Shown here in pieces: positions 1,138-30,995 of a DNA stretch of 40,734 nucleotides (position 1 is the stretch's first letter; each line of letters opens with the position of its first letter). The stretch is from Candidatus Gastranaerophilales bacterium (lineage in GTDB: Bacteria > Cyanobacteriota > Vampirovibrionia > Gastranaerophilales > Gastranaerophilaceae): the NCBI GenBank assembly GCA_944323155.1, contig CALURL010000015.1:1-40734 (forward strand). The letters are read 5' to 3'. Made by a program: the position numbers and the translations under genes. Below the pieces are notes generated by a model. That model did not search any database, was not told where the DNA came from, and saw only the letters and a list, made by a program, of their open reading frames with translations.

Positions 1138-2847
1138 TTATGCGCTGTAGCGTTTAAAACCTTTTTCAATATTTTTGGATATTAAATTCTTTACAGTATC
1201 ATATTCAGTTGTTAGAGTGCTAATTTCGGTATCAAGATTTTTCATTTTCAAATCTAGTTTTTGTTCTTTCATGTTTAGTTTTTCTTTTTTAGCTTTGTAA
1301 TCAGCTTCGGCTTTAGCAATTTCTGACTCGTCAGAAACCTCTTTTACATAAGAATATGTCTGGTAATTTCTCTGGTAATAAAAACCGTCGTCGCTCATGT
1401 TGGTTATATACATCATGCCGTTTTCAATCATATCCTGTAAATATTTTGGGTCATGAACTTCGTTATTCTCTGCCCAGCCGGAAGTTGCTATCTGGTTTAA
1501 CAAAGAATCATAGAATTCTATCATTCTACTTGCATATTCATTACCTTCGGTTATTGTTTCACCAGGGAAATCAAAGATTACATTATCACCGATTAATTCT
1601 GATGTACTAAAGCCTCGTTTTAAAGTATATGATTCATTTTTTGTATCATCAGTGGAATAACCATTATATGCATCTAAAAAGTAGGTCAAAAATGCACGTG
1701 CAATATTATTCAAATTTACACCGCAGGCACTATTAAATTTTTTACCAATTTTACCACCTTTAGTGTACCTGTTATACGCAATACCAACAATGTCACCGGC
1801 TTTATCTAAAATATTATTTTTTACTTCACCAACAGAAGGTTTCTTCTTAACAAAACCAGTCGCTGTTGCGACAGTATCAATACCGTTACCAAAACCTTCG
1901 TCGTGATGTACACGACTTGGTTCAACATCACTTACACTAAAATGGAATAATTCCATCGTTCTATATCTAGCCTCATTTAATGCCAATGTAGACTTTGGAT
2001 ACCCATTAGTAAGAACTGTTGCAAAAGCATCATATAACTGATCTATAAATCCGCCTGTTGCCGTTAAATCTGTTGCCAAACCCAAGACCCACTGAATTGG
2101 CCACTGATTATTATCATTAGTAATTGCTACAAAATTAATTTGATCATTTGGATCATTAGATAGAAGTTCGCTCAACTTTATATCTTCAAAAGTTGCAGAA
2201 CCTCCTTGTATATCAATATCTGAAGCTGTTGTTGTTTGTAAATTTCCTGAACTATCTTTACCAGTTACTACTGTAATATCCCCGCCTAAATTCATTCCTA
2301 TAGAAACAGCTGCAAGTCTATCTCTCAATTCTTCCATATCACCTTGTTCTACTGTTATTATATTCTCCGGAGAGGAATCTCCTAAACCTAAGGTATTATA
2401 ATATGGAGAATCTGCATAGGAACTTGCTTCGGACGCAGTGATAAGACCGGCATTAGCCAGACCTTGATAAAATTGAGTACGTACCAAACTTGATGAGGTA
2501 CATCCCAAACCTTCCTGTGGAATTCCGGCTTCTCGAGCGGCACTTGCGTAGCGGCTATCCAAAATGACACGGTTTAAGCTATTGGTCATGGTGATTGGAC
2601 GAAAATCGTTTAATGCAGATGGGGTCATAAAAGTATTATAATTTAACTGTTCCATGCCGCTGCCTGTGCCATAATAATCGTACATTAATTTTGTCTGGTT
2701 CAAACTTGCTTGATACTGGTTAGACAAAATGGCTAAGTCACGGGATATTGACAACTTTTCATGAGAAAGCTGCATTGACTGAAATTCACAATCGGACTTG
2801 CGTGATGTGATGGTTAATAAGCGTGCCTGTGATGCGGATAAGCCCAT
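1138..2847 (-). CDS. Family-A protein 1: conserved-termini protein, unknown, flagellin-like architecture
   Basis: 569 residues with no signal peptide or membrane segment. It is a close paralogue of the protein at 23849-25555 over its whole length. Shared blocks include the N-terminus MGLxAxQARLLTITxRKSDCE, then LNQTKLMYD, FIDQLY, GKxxNSACGVNLNNIARAFLTYFLDAY and SLLNQIATSGWAENN-like stretches. The last 65 residues form a heptad-rich coil ending with LDLKMKNLDTE and FKRYSA. The 369-aa protein at 29886 shares only the first 20 and last 35 or so residues. Helical ends around a variable centre are typical of flagellins and other axial or secreted filament proteins, but I see no direct flagellin similarity. 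The start is supported by AAAGGGG about 11 nt upstream. It lies downstream of the lytic transglycosylase on the same strand but has its own sigma-28-like promoter and a pentanucleotide repeat upstream. Function unknown. Confidence 0.85.
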   Translation of the reverse strand: MGLSASQARLLTITSRKSDCEFQSMQLSHEKLSISRDLAILSNQYQASLNQTKLMYDYYGTGSGMEQLNYNTFMTPSALNDFRPITMTNSLNRVILDSRYASAAREAGIPQEGLGCTSSSLVRTQFYQGLANAGLITASEASSYADSPYYNTLGLGDSSPENIITVEQGDMEELRDRLAAVSIGMNLGGDITVVTGKDSSGNLQTTTASDIDIQGGSATFEDIKLSELLSNDPNDQINFVAITNDNNQWPIQWVLGLATDLTATGGFIDQLYDAFATVLTNGYPKSTLALNEARYRTMELFHFSVSDVEPSRVHHDEGFGNGIDTVATATGFVKKKPSVGEVKNNILDKAGDIVGIAYNRYTKGGKIGKKFNSACGVNLNNIARAFLTYFLDAYNGYSTDDTKNESYTLKRGFSTSELIGDNVIFDFPGETITEGNEYASRMIEFYDSLLNQIATSGWAENNEVHDPKYLQDMIENGMMYITNMSDDGFYYQRNYQTYSYVKEVSDESEIAKAEADYKAKKEKLNMKEQKLDLKMKNLDTEISTLTTEYDTVKNLISKNIEKGFKRYSA

Positions 2848-23848: not shown

Positions 23849-25555
23849 ATGGGATTAGCAGCACAACAAGCTAGATTATTGACAATTACAGCCAGAAAAT
23901 CTGACTGTGAATATCAATCTATGAAGCTTTCTCACCAAAAGCTTGCTATTTCCCGTGAATTGGAAGACGTTTCTAATGAATACCAAAACTCTTTAAACCA
24001 GACTAAATTAATGTACGATTTTTATGGTAATGGTCAGGGAGAACAGTTGAATTATGCAACCTTAATGACACCTTCTGCTTTGAATGATTATATGCCGATT
24101 ACAATAACAAATTCAGCCGGCAGAGTAATATTAAACAGTCAATACGCAGCTGCAGCACGTGCTGCAGGTATTCCTATGGAAGGATTAGGATGTGCACCTT
24201 CAACACTTGTAAGACAACAATTCTATAATGGTTTGGCTTCAGCAGGCTTGATAACTCAATCAGATGCAGATTATTATGCTTCTACTGTTTATAATCAGGC
24301 TCTTGGTCTTGGTGCAACAACTTCTGAAGGCATTATCACAGTTGAATCAGGTGATATGACTGACTTAAAAGCAAAATTAACAGGCGTAACATTAAGTATG
24401 AATCAAGAAATGACTGTTGTTACAGGCCAAAATGCTGACGGAACTTATCAGACAACAACCAGCACATATACTGATATAACAAATTCTACAATGGATAGTA
24501 TATCATTGAGCCAGTTGTTATCTACCGATCCGAATGATCAGGTTAACTATGTAGCAGTAACAAATGATGACAACAATTATCCGACTAAATGGGTATTAGG
24601 TTTAGCACTGGATATGACATCCACAGGCGGCTTTATTGACCAGTTATATAATGCATTTGCATCAGTTTTAACAACCGGTTATGAAAAATCAACTATTGCA
24701 TTAAATTATGCAAAACAAAAGACAACTGAGCTTTTCGAATTCAGTTACGGCGGAGACCATGGAAACGGTCAGACTTCTGTTAAAAATGGAGGAGATCAAG
24801 AAAATCCTGACGGTATAGATAACATAGCAACAAACACCGGATATAGACCTAAAAAAGGTAAAGAAGGTGAAATGAAACAGAATATACTTGACAATACAGG
24901 TAATATTGTTGGTATTTCATTCAACTCTTACTGGAAAGGCGGCAAAAAAGGTAAAGATTATAACAGTGCCTGCGGTGTAAACTTAAACAATATTGCAAGA
25001 GCATTTTTAACATATTTCCTTGACGCATATGAAGATGGTCTTGATACAGACGATAATAAAAATGACTCAAGCGAGCTCAAAAGAGGTTATACAACATCCG
25101 AACTTATAACAGACGATGTTACATTCGACTTTGCAGGAGAAACAATTACCTCAGAAACTGCAGGAAGACACATTCAATTCTATGATACATTGTTAAATCA
25201 AATAGCAACTTCCGGCTGGGCTGAAAATAACCAGGTAACAGATCCTGCTTATCTTCAACAAATGCTGCAAAACGGTATGATGTATATTACCAAAATAAAA
25301 GATGATGGATATTATTATCAGGGTAATTACGCAACAGACTCTTATGTTAAAGAAGTTACTGATGAAACAGCAATTGCTCAGGCAGAAGCAAAATATAACA
25401 CCCTAAAAACGAAATTAAACAGTAAAGAAAATACTCTAGATTTGAAAATGAAAAACCTTGATACTGAAATTTCATCACTAACGACAGAATATGATACAAT
25501 AAAGAATACAATATCGAAAAACATAGAAAGGTCATTCAAACGATACAGCGCATAA
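23849..25555 (+). CDS. Family-A protein 2: conserved-termini protein, unknown, flagellin-like architecture
   Basis: 568 residues, no signal peptide or membrane segment. It is the full-length paralogue of the protein at 1138-2847, differing mainly in a hydrophilic insert around residues 310-330 (GGDHGNGQTSVKNGGDQEN). The N-terminal helix is MGLAAQQARLLTITARKSDC. Conserved middle segments include MTPSALNDYMPITITNS, STGGFIDQLYNAFASVLTTG and NSACGVNLNNIARAF. The C-terminal coil is LDLKMKNLDTEISSLTTEYD and the end SFKRYSA. AAAGGAAAG lies 13 nt before the ATG. The protein is rich in Asn, Thr, Asp, Gly and Tyr, as extracellular proteins often are, despite lacking a Sec signal. That suggests export by a non-Sec route, or an intracellular role if not exported. 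It has its own promoter and terminator, so it is monocistronic. No database family is known to me. Confidence 0.85.
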   Translation: MGLAAQQARLLTITARKSDCEYQSMKLSHQKLAISRELEDVSNEYQNSLNQTKLMYDFYGNGQGEQLNYATLMTPSALNDYMPITITNSAGRVILNSQYAAAARAAGIPMEGLGCAPSTLVRQQFYNGLASAGLITQSDADYYASTVYNQALGLGATTSEGIITVESGDMTDLKAKLTGVTLSMNQEMTVVTGQNADGTYQTTTSTYTDITNSTMDSISLSQLLSTDPNDQVNYVAVTNDDNNYPTKWVLGLALDMTSTGGFIDQLYNAFASVLTTGYEKSTIALNYAKQKTTELFEFSYGGDHGNGQTSVKNGGDQENPDGIDNIATNTGYRPKKGKEGEMKQNILDNTGNIVGISFNSYWKGGKKGKDYNSACGVNLNNIARAFLTYFLDAYEDGLDTDDNKNDSSELKRGYTTSELITDDVTFDFAGETITSETAGRHIQFYDTLLNQIATSGWAENNQVTDPAYLQQMLQNGMMYITKIKDDGYYYQGNYATDSYVKEVTDETAIAQAEAKYNTLKTKLNSKENTLDLKMKNLDTEISSLTTEYDTIKNTISKNIERSFKRYSA

Positions 25556-26580: not shown

Positions 26581-26904
26581 ATGAGAATATTACCTGTTTC
26601 AAATATGAATTTTAATGGTGGAATAATTAGAATTACAGGTCCTGATAAAGGCCATATTATTGCAATAAATACCGATGAAATATCTACAATCCAGAGTTCA
26701 AAATATATAAATAGAGATACCGAGAACTTAACAAATTTAGAAACGACGCCAAATGCTATAATAACTATGAATAATAACAATCGTATTTATACATATATGC
26801 CAATTTCTAAAGTATTAGATGCATATTCAACAGCAAAAGTAAGAACACTGAGCGAGTTACATCCTGACAGAAATCCTGAAATTCATGGCCACATTCAACA
26901 TTAA
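26581..26904 (+). CDS. Small hypothetical protein
   Basis: 107 residues with AAAGGAG 9 nt before the ATG. It begins MRILPVSNMNFNGGIIRITG. The rest is a mix of short beta-prone stretches (GHIIAINTDEISTI, NAIITMNNNNRIYTYM) and a His-rich end (HPDRNPEIHGHIQH). No signal peptide, membrane segment or recognised domain. It lies just upstream of the riboswitch region on the same strand but ends before the riboswitch promoter, so it is probably a separate unit. Confidence 0.6.
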   Translation: MRILPVSNMNFNGGIIRITGPDKGHIIAINTDEISTIQSSKYINRDTENLTNLETTPNAIITMNNNNRIYTYMPISKVLDAYSTAKVRTLSELHPDRNPEIHGHIQH

Positions 26905-26921
26905 TATTTGAACATAATTGT

Positions 26922-26950
26922 TTGACATGTAACTTTGGTTATTTTACGCT
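26922..26950 (+). promoter_or_regulatory. Candidate promoter of the riboswitch operon
   Basis: TTGACA at 26922-26927 is a perfect -35. The best box at 17 bp is TACGCT (26945-26950), which is poor, so the exact -10 is uncertain. The start would fall near 26956, right at the first helix of the riboswitch. Confidence 0.45.
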
Positions 26951-26954
26951 TTTA

Positions 26955-27060
26955 ATATCAAAGAGGAAATTGGTGTGAAAATCATCAGCTGTGCCGCAAC
27001 CGTAAAAGCCGGAACACTCAGAAAAACTTAAATGCCGCGAGCATCGGCAGATAAGATATA
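26955..27060 (+). promoter_or_regulatory. Cobalamin (B12) riboswitch aptamer
   Basis: The core matches the B12-box consensus in order: GAGGAA (26963-26968), GGTG (26972-26975), GAAAATC, CAGCTGTG, CCGCAAC (26994-27000) and CGTAA (27001-27005). A closing helix can form between ATATC (26956-26960) and GATAT (27055-27059). A peripheral hairpin TGCCG/CGGCA (27033-27037 with 27045-27049) follows the core. At about 105 nt it is compact, closer to the small class-II or variant cobalamin riboswitches than to long AdoCbl ones. A downstream terminator hairpin provides the switch. Recognition is from the consensus by eye. Confidence 0.82.
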
Positions 27061-27072
27061 TTTTCTAAGTTG

Positions 27073-27106
27073 TCCTCTGATTTACAAGAATAGCAGAGGA
27101 TTTTTT
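27073..27106 (+). terminator. Riboswitch expression platform: terminator that also masks the RBS
   Basis: TCCTCTG (27073-27079) pairs with CAGAGGA (27094-27100), followed at once by six T and then the ATG at 27108. The 3' arm contains AGAGGA, the only Shine-Dalgarno for that ATG. The hairpin can therefore stop transcription and hide the RBS. A competing helix AACTTA (27025-27030) with TAAGTT (27066-27071) could alternate with the aptamer. Confidence 0.8.
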
Positions 27107-27107
27107 A

Positions 27108-27809
27108 ATGTCACTGACAGCAGTAAAAACCAACAGTTCACGAGTAGGAACATGCCCGCACGGTCTACCTCTTGGAGCATGCCCGATATGTAACGGCATG
27201 GGTGGTGGCGGAGGCATGAAAAAAGCCGATTTTTCTGCAAAACCCGGTGAAATGAGCTGGAATGAATGCGCGGCAATAGGAGCATTCTTAAAAGCACAGC
27301 AGCAAGCTAAACTTACAAGACAACAAGATGCACAAAACTTTGCCCAAAATGTTCAGGCCTTCCAAAATTCCTTGATGAATGCAAGCCAAAAACTTGCAAA
27401 CATAGGACAATTTATGCTCACAAATGCACCTGCTGTTATTGCAAAACCAGTTAATTTTGTACTCAACACTGTTCTTGGCGGAATTGTAAGAACAATTGCC
27501 AGCATGCCCGCTGCTATTACGAATGCTCTGCAAACAATTCAACAAAAAATCGCTGATATATCTGACAAATTAACAGCAATGATTGGAGAATTTAAAGCTG
27601 CAATTAACAAAAAAATATCAGAAGCGTTCTCTGACTTAAAGAAAAAAGTAAAATCAATATTCTCCATTTTTAAACCACTCGACACTGATGACGATGACAA
27701 ACAAATTGATGAAACTAAAAAAGCCTTTGAATTAAAAACATTTATACACGAATTGTATAACAAATTAACAAACGGCGAAACTAAAAAGGATTTAGAAGAA
27801 AATGAATAA
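27108..27809 (+). CDS. Riboswitch-controlled protein with CPHG/CPIC cysteine motif, unknown
   Basis: 233 residues. The N-terminus has CPHGLPLGACPIC (Cys16, His18, Cys25, Cys28), a compact metal-knuckle-like motif, followed by a run of glycines (GMGGGGG). Residues about 60-180 are helical and rich in Ala, Gln and Asn (ANIGQFMLTNAPAVIAKP), with a moderately hydrophobic stretch at about 103-145 that could lie on or in the membrane. The C-terminal third is charged with an Asp cluster (DTDDDDK). No family recognised. Its ATG follows directly on the B12 riboswitch terminator, and its end overlaps the next gene by 8 nt. Zinc or other metal binding is inferred from the Cys/His spacing only. A role in cobalamin or metal handling is suggested by the riboswitch, not shown. 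Confidence 0.8.
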   Translation: MSLTAVKTNSSRVGTCPHGLPLGACPICNGMGGGGGMKKADFSAKPGEMSWNECAAIGAFLKAQQQAKLTRQQDAQNFAQNVQAFQNSLMNASQKLANIGQFMLTNAPAVIAKPVNFVLNTVLGGIVRTIASMPAAITNALQTIQQKIADISDKLTAMIGEFKAAINKKISEAFSDLKKKVKSIFSIFKPLDTDDDDKQIDETKKAFELKTFIHELYNKLTNGETKKDLEENE

Positions 27810-29292
27810 CATATCCCAGTTCAGGGACGGCGAAACCTTAAGACAACAACGAAATATGACAACTTCCCAGAGAAGGAATAATTCAAACGTAAAAGAGGGG
27901 GTTGTGGTTAATACGTTTATAAAAGACTGTCCTGATTGCAAGGTAGATCTTCATGACACCTGCGATTCTCTGGTAATCTCGGAAAACATAAAACTTCCCA
28001 AACAACTGAAGGAAGATAAAATTACAACAGAAAAGAGTCTGTTACCACTTAGTGCGGCAGCTTTAGGCGTAACAGGAATTATTACAGCGGCAACGGCGTT
28101 TATAAGCAGAAACGCAAAAATTTCAACTAAACTTGCCGAAGAAAAATGGGTTCCGACTCTAACCCGTAATATTTCCATAAACGATGAAACTGCACAGGCT
28201 ATATTCCAAATGGTTACAAATCCAAACCATAAAACAATTAAAGCCGGAGCAGGAGTTCTTACACTCACAGCAATGGCGTTTATGGGAAAAACATTCTTTG
28301 ACGGATTTAAAGAAGTCTGGGTAAAGAAAAAAGAAGCAGATATTCAAAAAAATCTTCAAGAAAAACTAATAAATATAGAAACCCAGTCATTTGCAGGCAA
28401 AATCCAAATAACAAGAAGTATGCTTTCAGAAAAAGCTAAAGAATTTAACAGTTATTTTTCAAAAGAGAAAATCCTGCCGAATTTTGGTAAAGAACTTAAT
28501 TTCACAAGGAATTACAATACCAAAAACTCAAAAGACACTCAGAAAAGCACCGGCTTAACATATTTTCTTCTAGGCGCAGGCACAGTCGGGGCAATTCTAG
28601 GCCTGACTTACATTTCCTTGAAAAACCTTAATAAAACAAAAGGTTTCTTAAAAGAATATATTAACAATAATAAAAATAATATTAAACATATAGTTGAAAC
28701 AACAAAAGCCGACACAAAAGATATTGATAAAAATAATCTCGGCTACCTTTTCCAATCAATTGACGCGGATGAAAAATACATAAGACAAATGCTCAAAAAC
28801 CTTAGCTGGGATGAAAAAGAAAAAGAAGCATTCATAAATACAATTGTGAGAAAAATAAAAACATCAACAGTAAAAGTTAATCCCCACATAGGCGGTGACG
28901 GGACTCCAAAACCATCGTTTTCATCATTTGTAGATGATTACAGAGCATATTTCTATAACTGGATTCTTGACACTGATAACAAACAATTCCAGCAGCTTTT
29001 CTGGGGAATGACAGGTGCTGCAGGTATTTCATACGCAGGAAAACTTACAGGGGATGCCATTAAAGAAGTTCAGGTAAAAAAATTCAATGCCCAGACAGAA
29101 ATTGAATTACAGCAAAGACTTGTATCAACAGAACTTAGAAACTTCAAATCAAAAAAAGACGCCGCAATAGAACCGCTTATGCATGAATTCCATAAACAGG
29201 CAAAAAACGGCAAACCCAAAGAACAACTAAAAACAATAGCAGATAATATTTTATTTGAAATCAAAAATGGGCCGCCATTTGTGTATTCATAA
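27802..29292 (+). CDS. Membrane protein of the riboswitch operon, unknown
   Basis: 496 residues; the ATG overlaps the end of the previous gene (ATGAATAA), so translation is coupled. The N-terminal 75 residues are hydrophilic with a Cys/His cluster (CPDCKVDLHDTC, Cys43, Cys46, Cys54), echoing the CPxC motif of its neighbour. Probable membrane segments are at about 81-102, 147-167 and 251-273, with a fourth weaker one near 397-417 (FWGMTGAAGISYAG). Between them are long charged helices, for example KKKEADIQKNLQEKLINIE. No transporter signature such as an ABC, TonB or ECF motif is visible. Unknown function; co-regulation by cobalamin is expected from the operon structure. Confidence 0.8.
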   Translation: MNNISQFRDGETLRQQRNMTTSQRRNNSNVKEGVVVNTFIKDCPDCKVDLHDTCDSLVISENIKLPKQLKEDKITTEKSLLPLSAAALGVTGIITAATAFISRNAKISTKLAEEKWVPTLTRNISINDETAQAIFQMVTNPNHKTIKAGAGVLTLTAMAFMGKTFFDGFKEVWVKKKEADIQKNLQEKLINIETQSFAGKIQITRSMLSEKAKEFNSYFSKEKILPNFGKELNFTRNYNTKNSKDTQKSTGLTYFLLGAGTVGAILGLTYISLKNLNKTKGFLKEYINNNKNNIKHIVETTKADTKDIDKNNLGYLFQSIDADEKYIRQMLKNLSWDEKEKEAFINTIVRKIKTSTVKVNPHIGGDGTPKPSFSSFVDDYRAYFYNWILDTDNKQFQQLFWGMTGAAGISYAGKLTGDAIKEVQVKKFNAQTEIELQQRLVSTELRNFKSKKDAAIEPLMHEFHKQAKNGKPKEQLKTIADNILFEIKNGPPFVYS

Positions 29293-29307
29293 AATACGAG
29301 GTCAAAG

Positions 29308-29766
29308 ATGTATATCCAGCAAGTTCAAAACATTAATATAACTCCATACCGTGTTCAAATGCCGACTCCTCAAAGGAATTATTGCATTTTTGACCAGAAC
29401 CGGGTTGATTGCTTTGTAAAACAAAGAGAGAATTCTTTGCCATATCTGGCAGATATACTTGTTCATTCAAATAATGAACAACAAATTGTAGAAACTCTTT
29501 ATACTCTGAATAGAATGCTTGATAACGGAGTAAAAGGCATAGACAAAATGTATCCGGTGCTATCGCGCTTCAACAACACAACTTCTCCTAATATACAAAC
29601 ATTTTTGGCCGGAATTTACAGAAAAACGCAAGTTCCTGACGCCTTTGGGCCTCTTGTCAAAATGTTAATACAAAATTCACTGCACCCTGCACCTGCAAAT
29701 TTTGATCCTAATGAAGAAATCGGAGGAGCAATACTGGCTTACCTTTCAGACCGTTTTAGAAATTGA
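29308..29766 (+). CDS. Third protein of the riboswitch operon, helical, unknown
   Basis: 152 residues, starting 15 nt after the previous stop with GAGGTC before the ATG. The first 35 residues are Gln, Pro and Asn rich (QQVQNINITPYRVQMPTPQR). The remainder looks like alpha-helical repeat pairs: LADILVHSNNEQQIVETLYTLNRML and LAGIYRKTQVPDAFGPLVKML, similar in style to HEAT-like helices, suggesting a protein-binding adaptor. No catalytic motif. It is the last gene of the unit; a perfect inverted repeat follows 12 nt after the stop. Confidence 0.7.
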   Translation: MYIQQVQNINITPYRVQMPTPQRNYCIFDQNRVDCFVKQRENSLPYLADILVHSNNEQQIVETLYTLNRMLDNGVKGIDKMYPVLSRFNNTTSPNIQTFLAGIYRKTQVPDAFGPLVKMLIQNSLHPAPANFDPNEEIGGAILAYLSDRFRN

Positions 29767-29885: not shown

Positions 29886-30995
29886 ATGGGAATGGCAGCG
29901 TCACAAGCTAGATTTTTAGGTCTGACAGCCAGAAAAACCAATGTTGAGTTCGAAGGTCAACAAGTTAACCAGCAGCGAACCACATTGTCCAACCAGTCTG
30001 CAAATTATTACAACGATTTGCTCGGTATGACTGTACCAACTCCTCCGTCTGTCGACAATTATACAAAAACCGTTTATACATTTGAGGACGGCGCTTTATC
30101 TAACACAATAACAAGTCTAATTGCCTCTCCAAACGGTGAATATACTGTAAGTTATTTAAGAAAATGGACTGATGATTTTTCAGTAGTCGCAGCCTCAACA
30201 AGTATTGTTACAGAAAATGGCGACGGTACATATAATGTTGGCGCAAACAAATTACGCGACTTAGGTGTTGCTATTCCGGATAATGCAGATAACTTTGAAC
30301 ACGATGCTACCGGAAACAGAACAAAATACATCGGTGAATATGAATATCTTCAATCAATGACACCTGAACAAATCGACAGTTTAATTAAAGAAGAACAACA
30401 ATATCTTGCTCTATTAAACGAAAAATACGGAACAACAAATAGTGATTGGCTGGTAAGATATGTTGAAGATACTACTACAGGTAAACAAGTTCCATACTTC
30501 TACAAGAAAGATGATGTAACCGGTGCAGTTTACGATGACAATGGAAATTCTAAATCTAATATCAAATGTTACACCGTTGGCAGCACTACACAAACTGAAG
30601 AAGTTAAAGCTGTTACTAACTGTAAAGTTGAAAAAGACAGTTCAGGCCGCTTTATCAATATAACTCTTCCTGAACTTGATGACGATGGTAATCCTGTTCT
30701 TGATGATAAAGGCAACATTGTTTACGGCCCGACTTATTCTTTGACAACAAGCACAGTTACTGATCAAGATGCATACAATGATGCAATGAATCAATATGAA
30801 TATGAAAAATATGAATATGATCAAGCTATCAATGAAATAAATGCAAAAATAGAAATTATACAAGCACAAGATAAAAACCTTGAATTAAGATTGAAACAAC
30901 TCGATACAGAACAAGATGCAATTCAAACAGAAATGGATGCCGTACAAAAAGTTATCGAAAAGAACACAGAATCTTCATTCAAAACATTCGGATAA
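29886..30995 (+). CDS. Family-A protein 3: short form, unknown, flagellin-like architecture
   Basis: 369 residues, no signal peptide. The N-terminus MGMAASQARFLGLTARKTNV and the C-terminal coil (LRLKQLDTEQDAIQTEMDAV, ending SFKTFG) align with both ends of the 568/569-aa proteins. The central 280 residues are unrelated to theirs. The middle is rich in Asp, Asn, Thr, Tyr and Gly with short repeats such as LDDDGNPVLDDKGNIVYGP, resembling surface or calcium-loop segments. A Tyr/Glu-rich helix (YEYEKYEYDQAINEINAK) leads into the C-terminal coil. AGAAAGGA lies about 13 nt before the ATG. It has its own promoter and terminator. Conserved ends with a swapped centre argue that the ends do a common job, such as assembly or export. 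Exact function unknown. Confidence 0.85.
   Translation: MGMAASQARFLGLTARKTNVEFEGQQVNQQRTTLSNQSANYYNDLLGMTVPTPPSVDNYTKTVYTFEDGALSNTITSLIASPNGEYTVSYLRKWTDDFSVVAASTSIVTENGDGTYNVGANKLRDLGVAIPDNADNFEHDATGNRTKYIGEYEYLQSMTPEQIDSLIKEEQQYLALLNEKYGTTNSDWLVRYVEDTTTGKQVPYFYKKDDVTGAVYDDNGNSKSNIKCYTVGSTTQTEEVKAVTNCKVEKDSSGRFINITLPELDDDGNPVLDDKGNIVYGPTYSLTTSTVTDQDAYNDAMNQYEYEKYEYDQAINEINAKIEIIQAQDKNLELRLKQLDTEQDAIQTEMDAVQKVIEKNTESSFKTFG

Follow-up and report, generated by a model that had tools for sequence, protein, structure and literature searches.

Cobalamin riboswitches classically control genes for B12 uptake or for B12-independent isozymes. What, then, is the purpose of such a switch in front of three genes that resemble neither? 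We addressed this question in a stretch of DNA of 40,734 nucleotides (the window) from a Gastranaerophilales genome of 1.79 Mb and 99.7% completeness (G000). The features that concern us are as follows.

26949-27026, forward strand: AdoCbl-II (cobalamin) riboswitch aptamer, RF01689, with covarying helices in 22 relatives
26993-27017, forward strand: B12 box, GCCGCAACCGTAAAAGCCGGAACAC
27033-27049, forward strand: hairpin TGCCG-CGAGCAT-CGGCA between aptamer and terminator, read from the sequence and paired in both MFE and centroid folds
27073-27106, forward strand: terminator-like hairpin with a U6 tail, its 3' arm carrying a putative Shine-Dalgarno sequence; supported as a hairpin by folding energy and helix 6, with a putative function
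27108-27809, forward strand: P2, 233 aa, with CPHG-x5-CPIC at the N-terminus followed by amphipathic helices; no known family
27802-29292, forward strand: P3, membrane protein of 496 aa with four hydrophobic segments and an internal duplication; no family or fold match
29308-29766, forward strand: P4, small protein of 152 aa, probably helical; no known family

When the window was scanned with cmscan against all Rfam families, the single match at gathering level was AdoCbl-II, which covers the full model (1-81) with 51.7 bits (E 7e-10) against a gathering score of 36.5; the genome has no AdoCbl-II site beyond this one. In 22 aptamers that precede P2, pairing in helices 3-5 is 95-100%, both sides change at four of the five pairs of helix 3, and the covariation score is 0.262, compared with 0.132 for shuffles (0/500) and at most 0.139 for slid controls. 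A plain MFE fold of the whole leader did not recover the aptamer and was no better than shuffles (z -0.51); the evidence for the aptamer comes from the covariance model and from comparative pairing. The first-pass annotation had read a compact B12-box aptamer here and had named a covariance-model scan as a check; the match is significant and the aptamer stands, except that it really starts at 26949. We conclude that the AdoCbl-II riboswitch before the operon is confirmed at the level of sequence, with AdoCbl binding and switching predicted, and that it is a further member of the already known family RF01689.

Downstream of the aptamer, the hairpin at 27033-27049 is probably an expression-platform element of the kissing-loop type. 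The arms of the terminator-like hairpin (27073-27100) read TCCTCTG...CAGAGGA and are followed by TTTTTTAATG; the putative Shine-Dalgarno sequence, AGAGGA at 27095-27100, lies inside the hairpin, and the U6 tail stops just short of the P2 ATG. Folded alone, this hairpin has an energy of -11.8 kcal/mol (z -2.0), and it recurs in relatives with some covariation (helix 6 of the 22-aptamer comparison). The anatomy agrees with the earlier description of a hairpin that would both terminate transcription and occlude the ribosome-binding site.

The three open reading frames lie as first annotated, and their products proved to be as unfamiliar as had been claimed. P2, P3 and P4 stayed below every Pfam and NCBIfam cut-off, PDB sequence profiles gave nothing beyond coiled-coil-like chance, and profile searches including PHROGs gave just weak coiled-coil-type matches. 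The hydrophobic segments of P3 span residues 83-101, 145-163, 255-273 and 399-417. Its internal duplication, around GK..DG.KEV.VKK, is detected between the two halves by BLASTP (E 9e-6) and between N- and C-terminal profiles by hhalign (probability 96.9). AlphaFold2 predicts a helical P3 with modest confidence (pLDDT 69, pTM 0.50), and a Foldseek search with this model returned no match below E 0.1. A CPDC cluster had been attributed to this protein, but alignment of relatives shows that C43 and C46 vary. We also rejected a phage origin, as tblastn found no match to P3 in phage records.

The CPHG-CPIC motif of P2 fared better: C16, H18, C25 and C28, together with C54, are invariant in an alignment of 60 relatives. 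The AlphaFold2 model of P2 (pLDDT 65) is weaker than that of P3. A reading of P2 as a PduO-type cobalamin adenosyltransferase (PF01923) was discarded, because the match reaches 15.2 bits against a cut-off of 24 (E 0.023) and appears, as a weak helical match, in 4 of the 60 members. P4 contains the motifs GIYRK..PDAFGPL and F.P.EE.GGA, invariant in 35 relatives; it shows no recognisable repeat family, and its description as a helical-repeat protein was dropped.

Some further sequences in the window and in other genomes deserve mention. Three proteins in it share the N-terminus MG[LMF]xAxQARxLxxxARK (1141-2847, reverse strand; 23849-25555 and 29886-30995, forward strand), the last of them immediately following the operon. 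Short members of this family lie upstream of a P3-like gene in two genomes from other orders (L207 445-777 and L208 956-1288). A short N-terminal motif, NMNFNGG/NVNFAGK, is found in proteins of these genomes that are otherwise unrelated (26581-26904, forward strand, in the window; L105 6299-7222) and could be a tag specific to the lineage or a signal for targeting. At L195 1021-1065 (reverse strand), a sub-threshold match to the Rfam Histone3 stem-loop (31.3 bits) is presumably a terminator hairpin.

The link between switch and operon extends throughout the order. P3 is present in 174 of 192 Gastranaerophilales genomes and AdoCbl-II in 262 of 286; at least 79 of the AdoCbl-II sites listed precede P3 by 667-1037 nt on its own strand, and P2 sits between the two wherever the region was read. 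We scanned 30 P3 loci, 20 of them picked by P3 similarity, to avoid choosing by riboswitch, and 10 for divergence. A riboswitch was found upstream of P3 in 28: AdoCbl-II at gathering in 19 of the 20 similarity-picked loci, and AdoCbl-II in 9 of the 10 divergent ones, two of these just below gathering. Six genomes with P3 had no detected riboswitch, and on recheck no cobalamin riboswitch was detectable at the P3 operons L156 (G060), L146 (G123) and L151 (G125), which are natural cases of riboswitch loss. Nine genomes of the order lack both switch and P3, a coincidence with p 2e-7 if shared ancestry is ignored, and most of these also lack NrdJ, the B12-dependent ribonucleotide reductase. The claim that a cobalamin riboswitch governs an operon of unfamiliar proteins is therefore confirmed by sequence, and the association is deeply conserved.

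We searched 80 further genomes, of which 75 come from outside the order, with a broadened P3 profile, and 12 yielded homologues. Eight of these 12 have a cobalamin riboswitch immediately before the distant P3 gene, in the same orientation: AdoCbl-II in G331, G339, G342, G311 and G297, and RF00174 in G336, G307 and G287. All are at the expected place; those of G311, G297, G307 and G287 score clearly below gathering and that of G342 just below. The presence of two riboswitch families on one protein family suggests a functional tie of P3 to B12. P2 was not found beside the out-of-order P3 genes examined, and P3 is for this reason taken to be the conserved core of the system.

These distant genomes also allow P3 to be compared with a known B12 importer. 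Outside the order, the permease domain FecCD occurs in 36 of 75 genomes but in none of the 12 with P3 (p 2e-4, shared ancestry ignored). In families f8 and f13, FecCD adjoins a cysteine-desulphurase-like gene and, in the examples looked at, has no riboswitch that reaches gathering, so it need not be B12-specific; family f9 is the cleaner comparison. There, P3 and FecCD split five against five and are mutually exclusive. The f9 genus g75 (G316) has a weak RF00174 match (26.5 bits) upstream of btuB-btuF-btuD-btuC (L217 6488-8990, reverse strand), and the best match of its TonB receptor is to TIGR01779 (BtuB), below that model's cut-off; in the sister genera, RF00174 lies upstream of P3 instead of the btu genes.

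If P3 is tied to B12, the supply and use of the vitamin in these genomes become relevant. The window genome encodes NrdJ, and searches of it for FecCD permease/BtuC (PF01032), the TonB-dependent receptor plug (PF07715), the ECF T-component EcfT (PF02361) and CobS (PF02654; de novo or salvage cobalamin synthesis) found none of them. The importer searches covered FecCD, the TonB plug and EcfT. The class Vampirovibrionia is reported to be diderm (PMC4040986), and B12 must therefore cross an outer membrane. Within the order, CobS is limited to three genomes (G002, G009 and G019), all of which lack P3, and FecCD and the TonB plug co-occur in the same nine genomes. Neither FecCD nor CobS is present in 40 of the 49 NrdJ-encoding genomes tested, and 36 of these 40 have P3; three genomes with NrdJ (G096, G101 and G186) lack P3, FecCD and CobS alike. 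P3 does not depend on NrdJ alone, since it persists in genomes that lack this enzyme: NrdJ is absent from 44 of the 174 P3 genomes, and members of genus g3 are without NrdJ and mostly without any clear PF02310 protein.

Where AdoCbl-II is unlinked to P3, the sites that were read mostly precede nrdD-nrdG or btuB-btuC-btuD-btuF, with equivalog matches for both nrdD and nrdG. One genome without P3 (G004) has class-I cobalamin matches on both strands of L117 (482-608 and 28-164), preceding a gene for an OprB-type porin as well as a haem/corrin-pathway-like gene cluster; the AdoCbl-II site before the OprB gene is scored by cmscan as class-I cobalamin.

Overall, B12 regulation of the operon is well supported at the sequence level. 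In the mechanism that we propose, high cellular AdoCbl would lead to ligand binding by the aptamer and formation of the downstream hairpin, which would terminate transcription and hide the ribosome site, making this an OFF-switch; at low AdoCbl, P2, P3 and P4 would be made. P3 would lie at the heart of an undescribed membrane system by which diderm bacteria without BtuB/BtuCDF obtain corrinoids (B12) for NrdJ and other enzymes; P2 could be a metal- or corrinoid-binding partner through its invariant Cys/His cluster, and P4 may be an adaptor. An AdoCbl-repressed, P3-centred system of corrinoid acquisition that replaces Btu is the best explanation, and we give it an even chance; what we infer are the ligand, the direction in which the switch acts, transport, and what P2 and P4 do. 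The broader proposal, that P3, with P2 and P4 as accessories in the Gastranaerophilales, takes up corrinoids in place of BtuB-BtuCDF in much of the class and has no homology to known transporters, is more tentative and falls somewhat short of even. Because the switch is found class-wide on the same membrane-protein gene, and most relatives lack a known B12 importer, P2-P3-P4 is a good candidate for an undescribed route of B12 acquisition. Against uptake count the lack of resemblance of P3 to any known transporter and its modest model, the six genomes that have both P3 and BtuBCDF (G033, G172, G155, G104, G007 and G013), the many P3 genomes without NrdJ, the three NrdJ genomes that lack every B12 source tested, the six P3 genomes in which no riboswitch was detected, and the absence of P2 beside out-of-order P3 genes.

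Comparison with known systems places the operon between familiar regulation and unfamiliar products. The riboswitch has what is expected of AdoCbl-II, namely a full-length match above gathering, a B12 box, covarying helices and a hairpin platform before the start codon, but its targets are unknown families rather than genes for B12 transport, synthesis or isozymes. Like BtuB-BtuCDF, P2-P4 are riboswitch-controlled, and BtuB-BtuCDF holds the corresponding regulated position in sister genera and elsewhere in the order; unlike it, they include no TonB receptor, FecCD permease or periplasmic binding protein, and P3 is unrelated to it in sequence. BtuM and ECF-CbrT are precedents for Btu-independent B12 uptake, and the cysteine that BtuM places on cobalt recalls the invariant cysteines of P2, but P2-P4 match neither family and EcfT is absent from the window genome. 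NrdD/NrdG under an AdoCbl riboswitch share the riboswitch class and the order, whereas P2-P4 have no recognisable enzyme domain.

The annotation had left a choice between a B12 or cobalt acquisition or storage system and a B12-replaceable process. We favour B12 acquisition, since most P3 genomes lack the tested importers and CobS, and since no genome examined outside the order has both P3 and BtuC; cobalt and storage found no support. A B12-independent substitute or B12-sparing process, expressed like nrdD-nrdG or metE when AdoCbl is short, would fit the control of nrdD-nrdG by AdoCbl-II elsewhere in the order and the retention of the operon in genomes without NrdJ. Such a substitute should, however, have survived in the nine genomes without switch and P3, which are mostly NrdJ-less; that P3 was lost there, not kept, makes this reading unlikely, and the absence of P3 where CobS is found, its exclusion of BtuC outside the order and the lack of an enzyme signature in P2-P4 also count against it. 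That the switch or its linkage is a product of chance or assembly can be set aside as effectively refuted: the whole leader may fold no better than shuffles, but 28 of 30 loci are linked, helices covary, and two Rfam families are involved in many independent genomes.

The remaining alternatives leave import to another protein, and we consider both improbable, to a like degree. In one of them, P2-P4 would handle B12 after entry, by storage, decyanation or trafficking to NrdJ or an adenosyltransferase, with BtuM or BacA/SbmA, for example, as importer. The invariant Cys/His cluster of P2 would suit this role, and there are precedents in BtuM, which uses a cysteine as axial ligand on cobalt and carries out decyanation (PMC6072759), and in BacA, which imports cobalamin (PMC10960864), both from families outside our importer searches. 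Yet the conserved core is P3, a membrane protein, which excludes BtuC in other orders, where P2 is missing. The class also includes Vampirovibrio, a predator, and P2-P4 might instead remodel the envelope or mediate adhesion or contact, triggered by a shortage of B12, and so help cells to draw nutrients from neighbours or prey. The long helices and four hydrophobic segments of P3, which form no recognisable transporter fold, are compatible with this; the exclusion with BtuCDF and the absence of P3 where CobS is found point, however, to the supply of B12 itself.

We found no report of the operon in Gastranaerophilales or Vampirovibrio, and none of the databases and papers searched describes a class-wide orphan operon under AdoCbl-II. 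By which route most B12-requiring prokaryotes import the vitamin is an open question. Here, a family of membrane proteins is tied to cobalamin riboswitches throughout a class, in B12-using genomes without the tested importers and CobS, and this link makes the question testable with one gene, P3, or three. Should P3 prove to transport corrinoids, it would represent a new type of B12 importer, and gut Gastranaerophilales would compete for B12 by an undescribed route.
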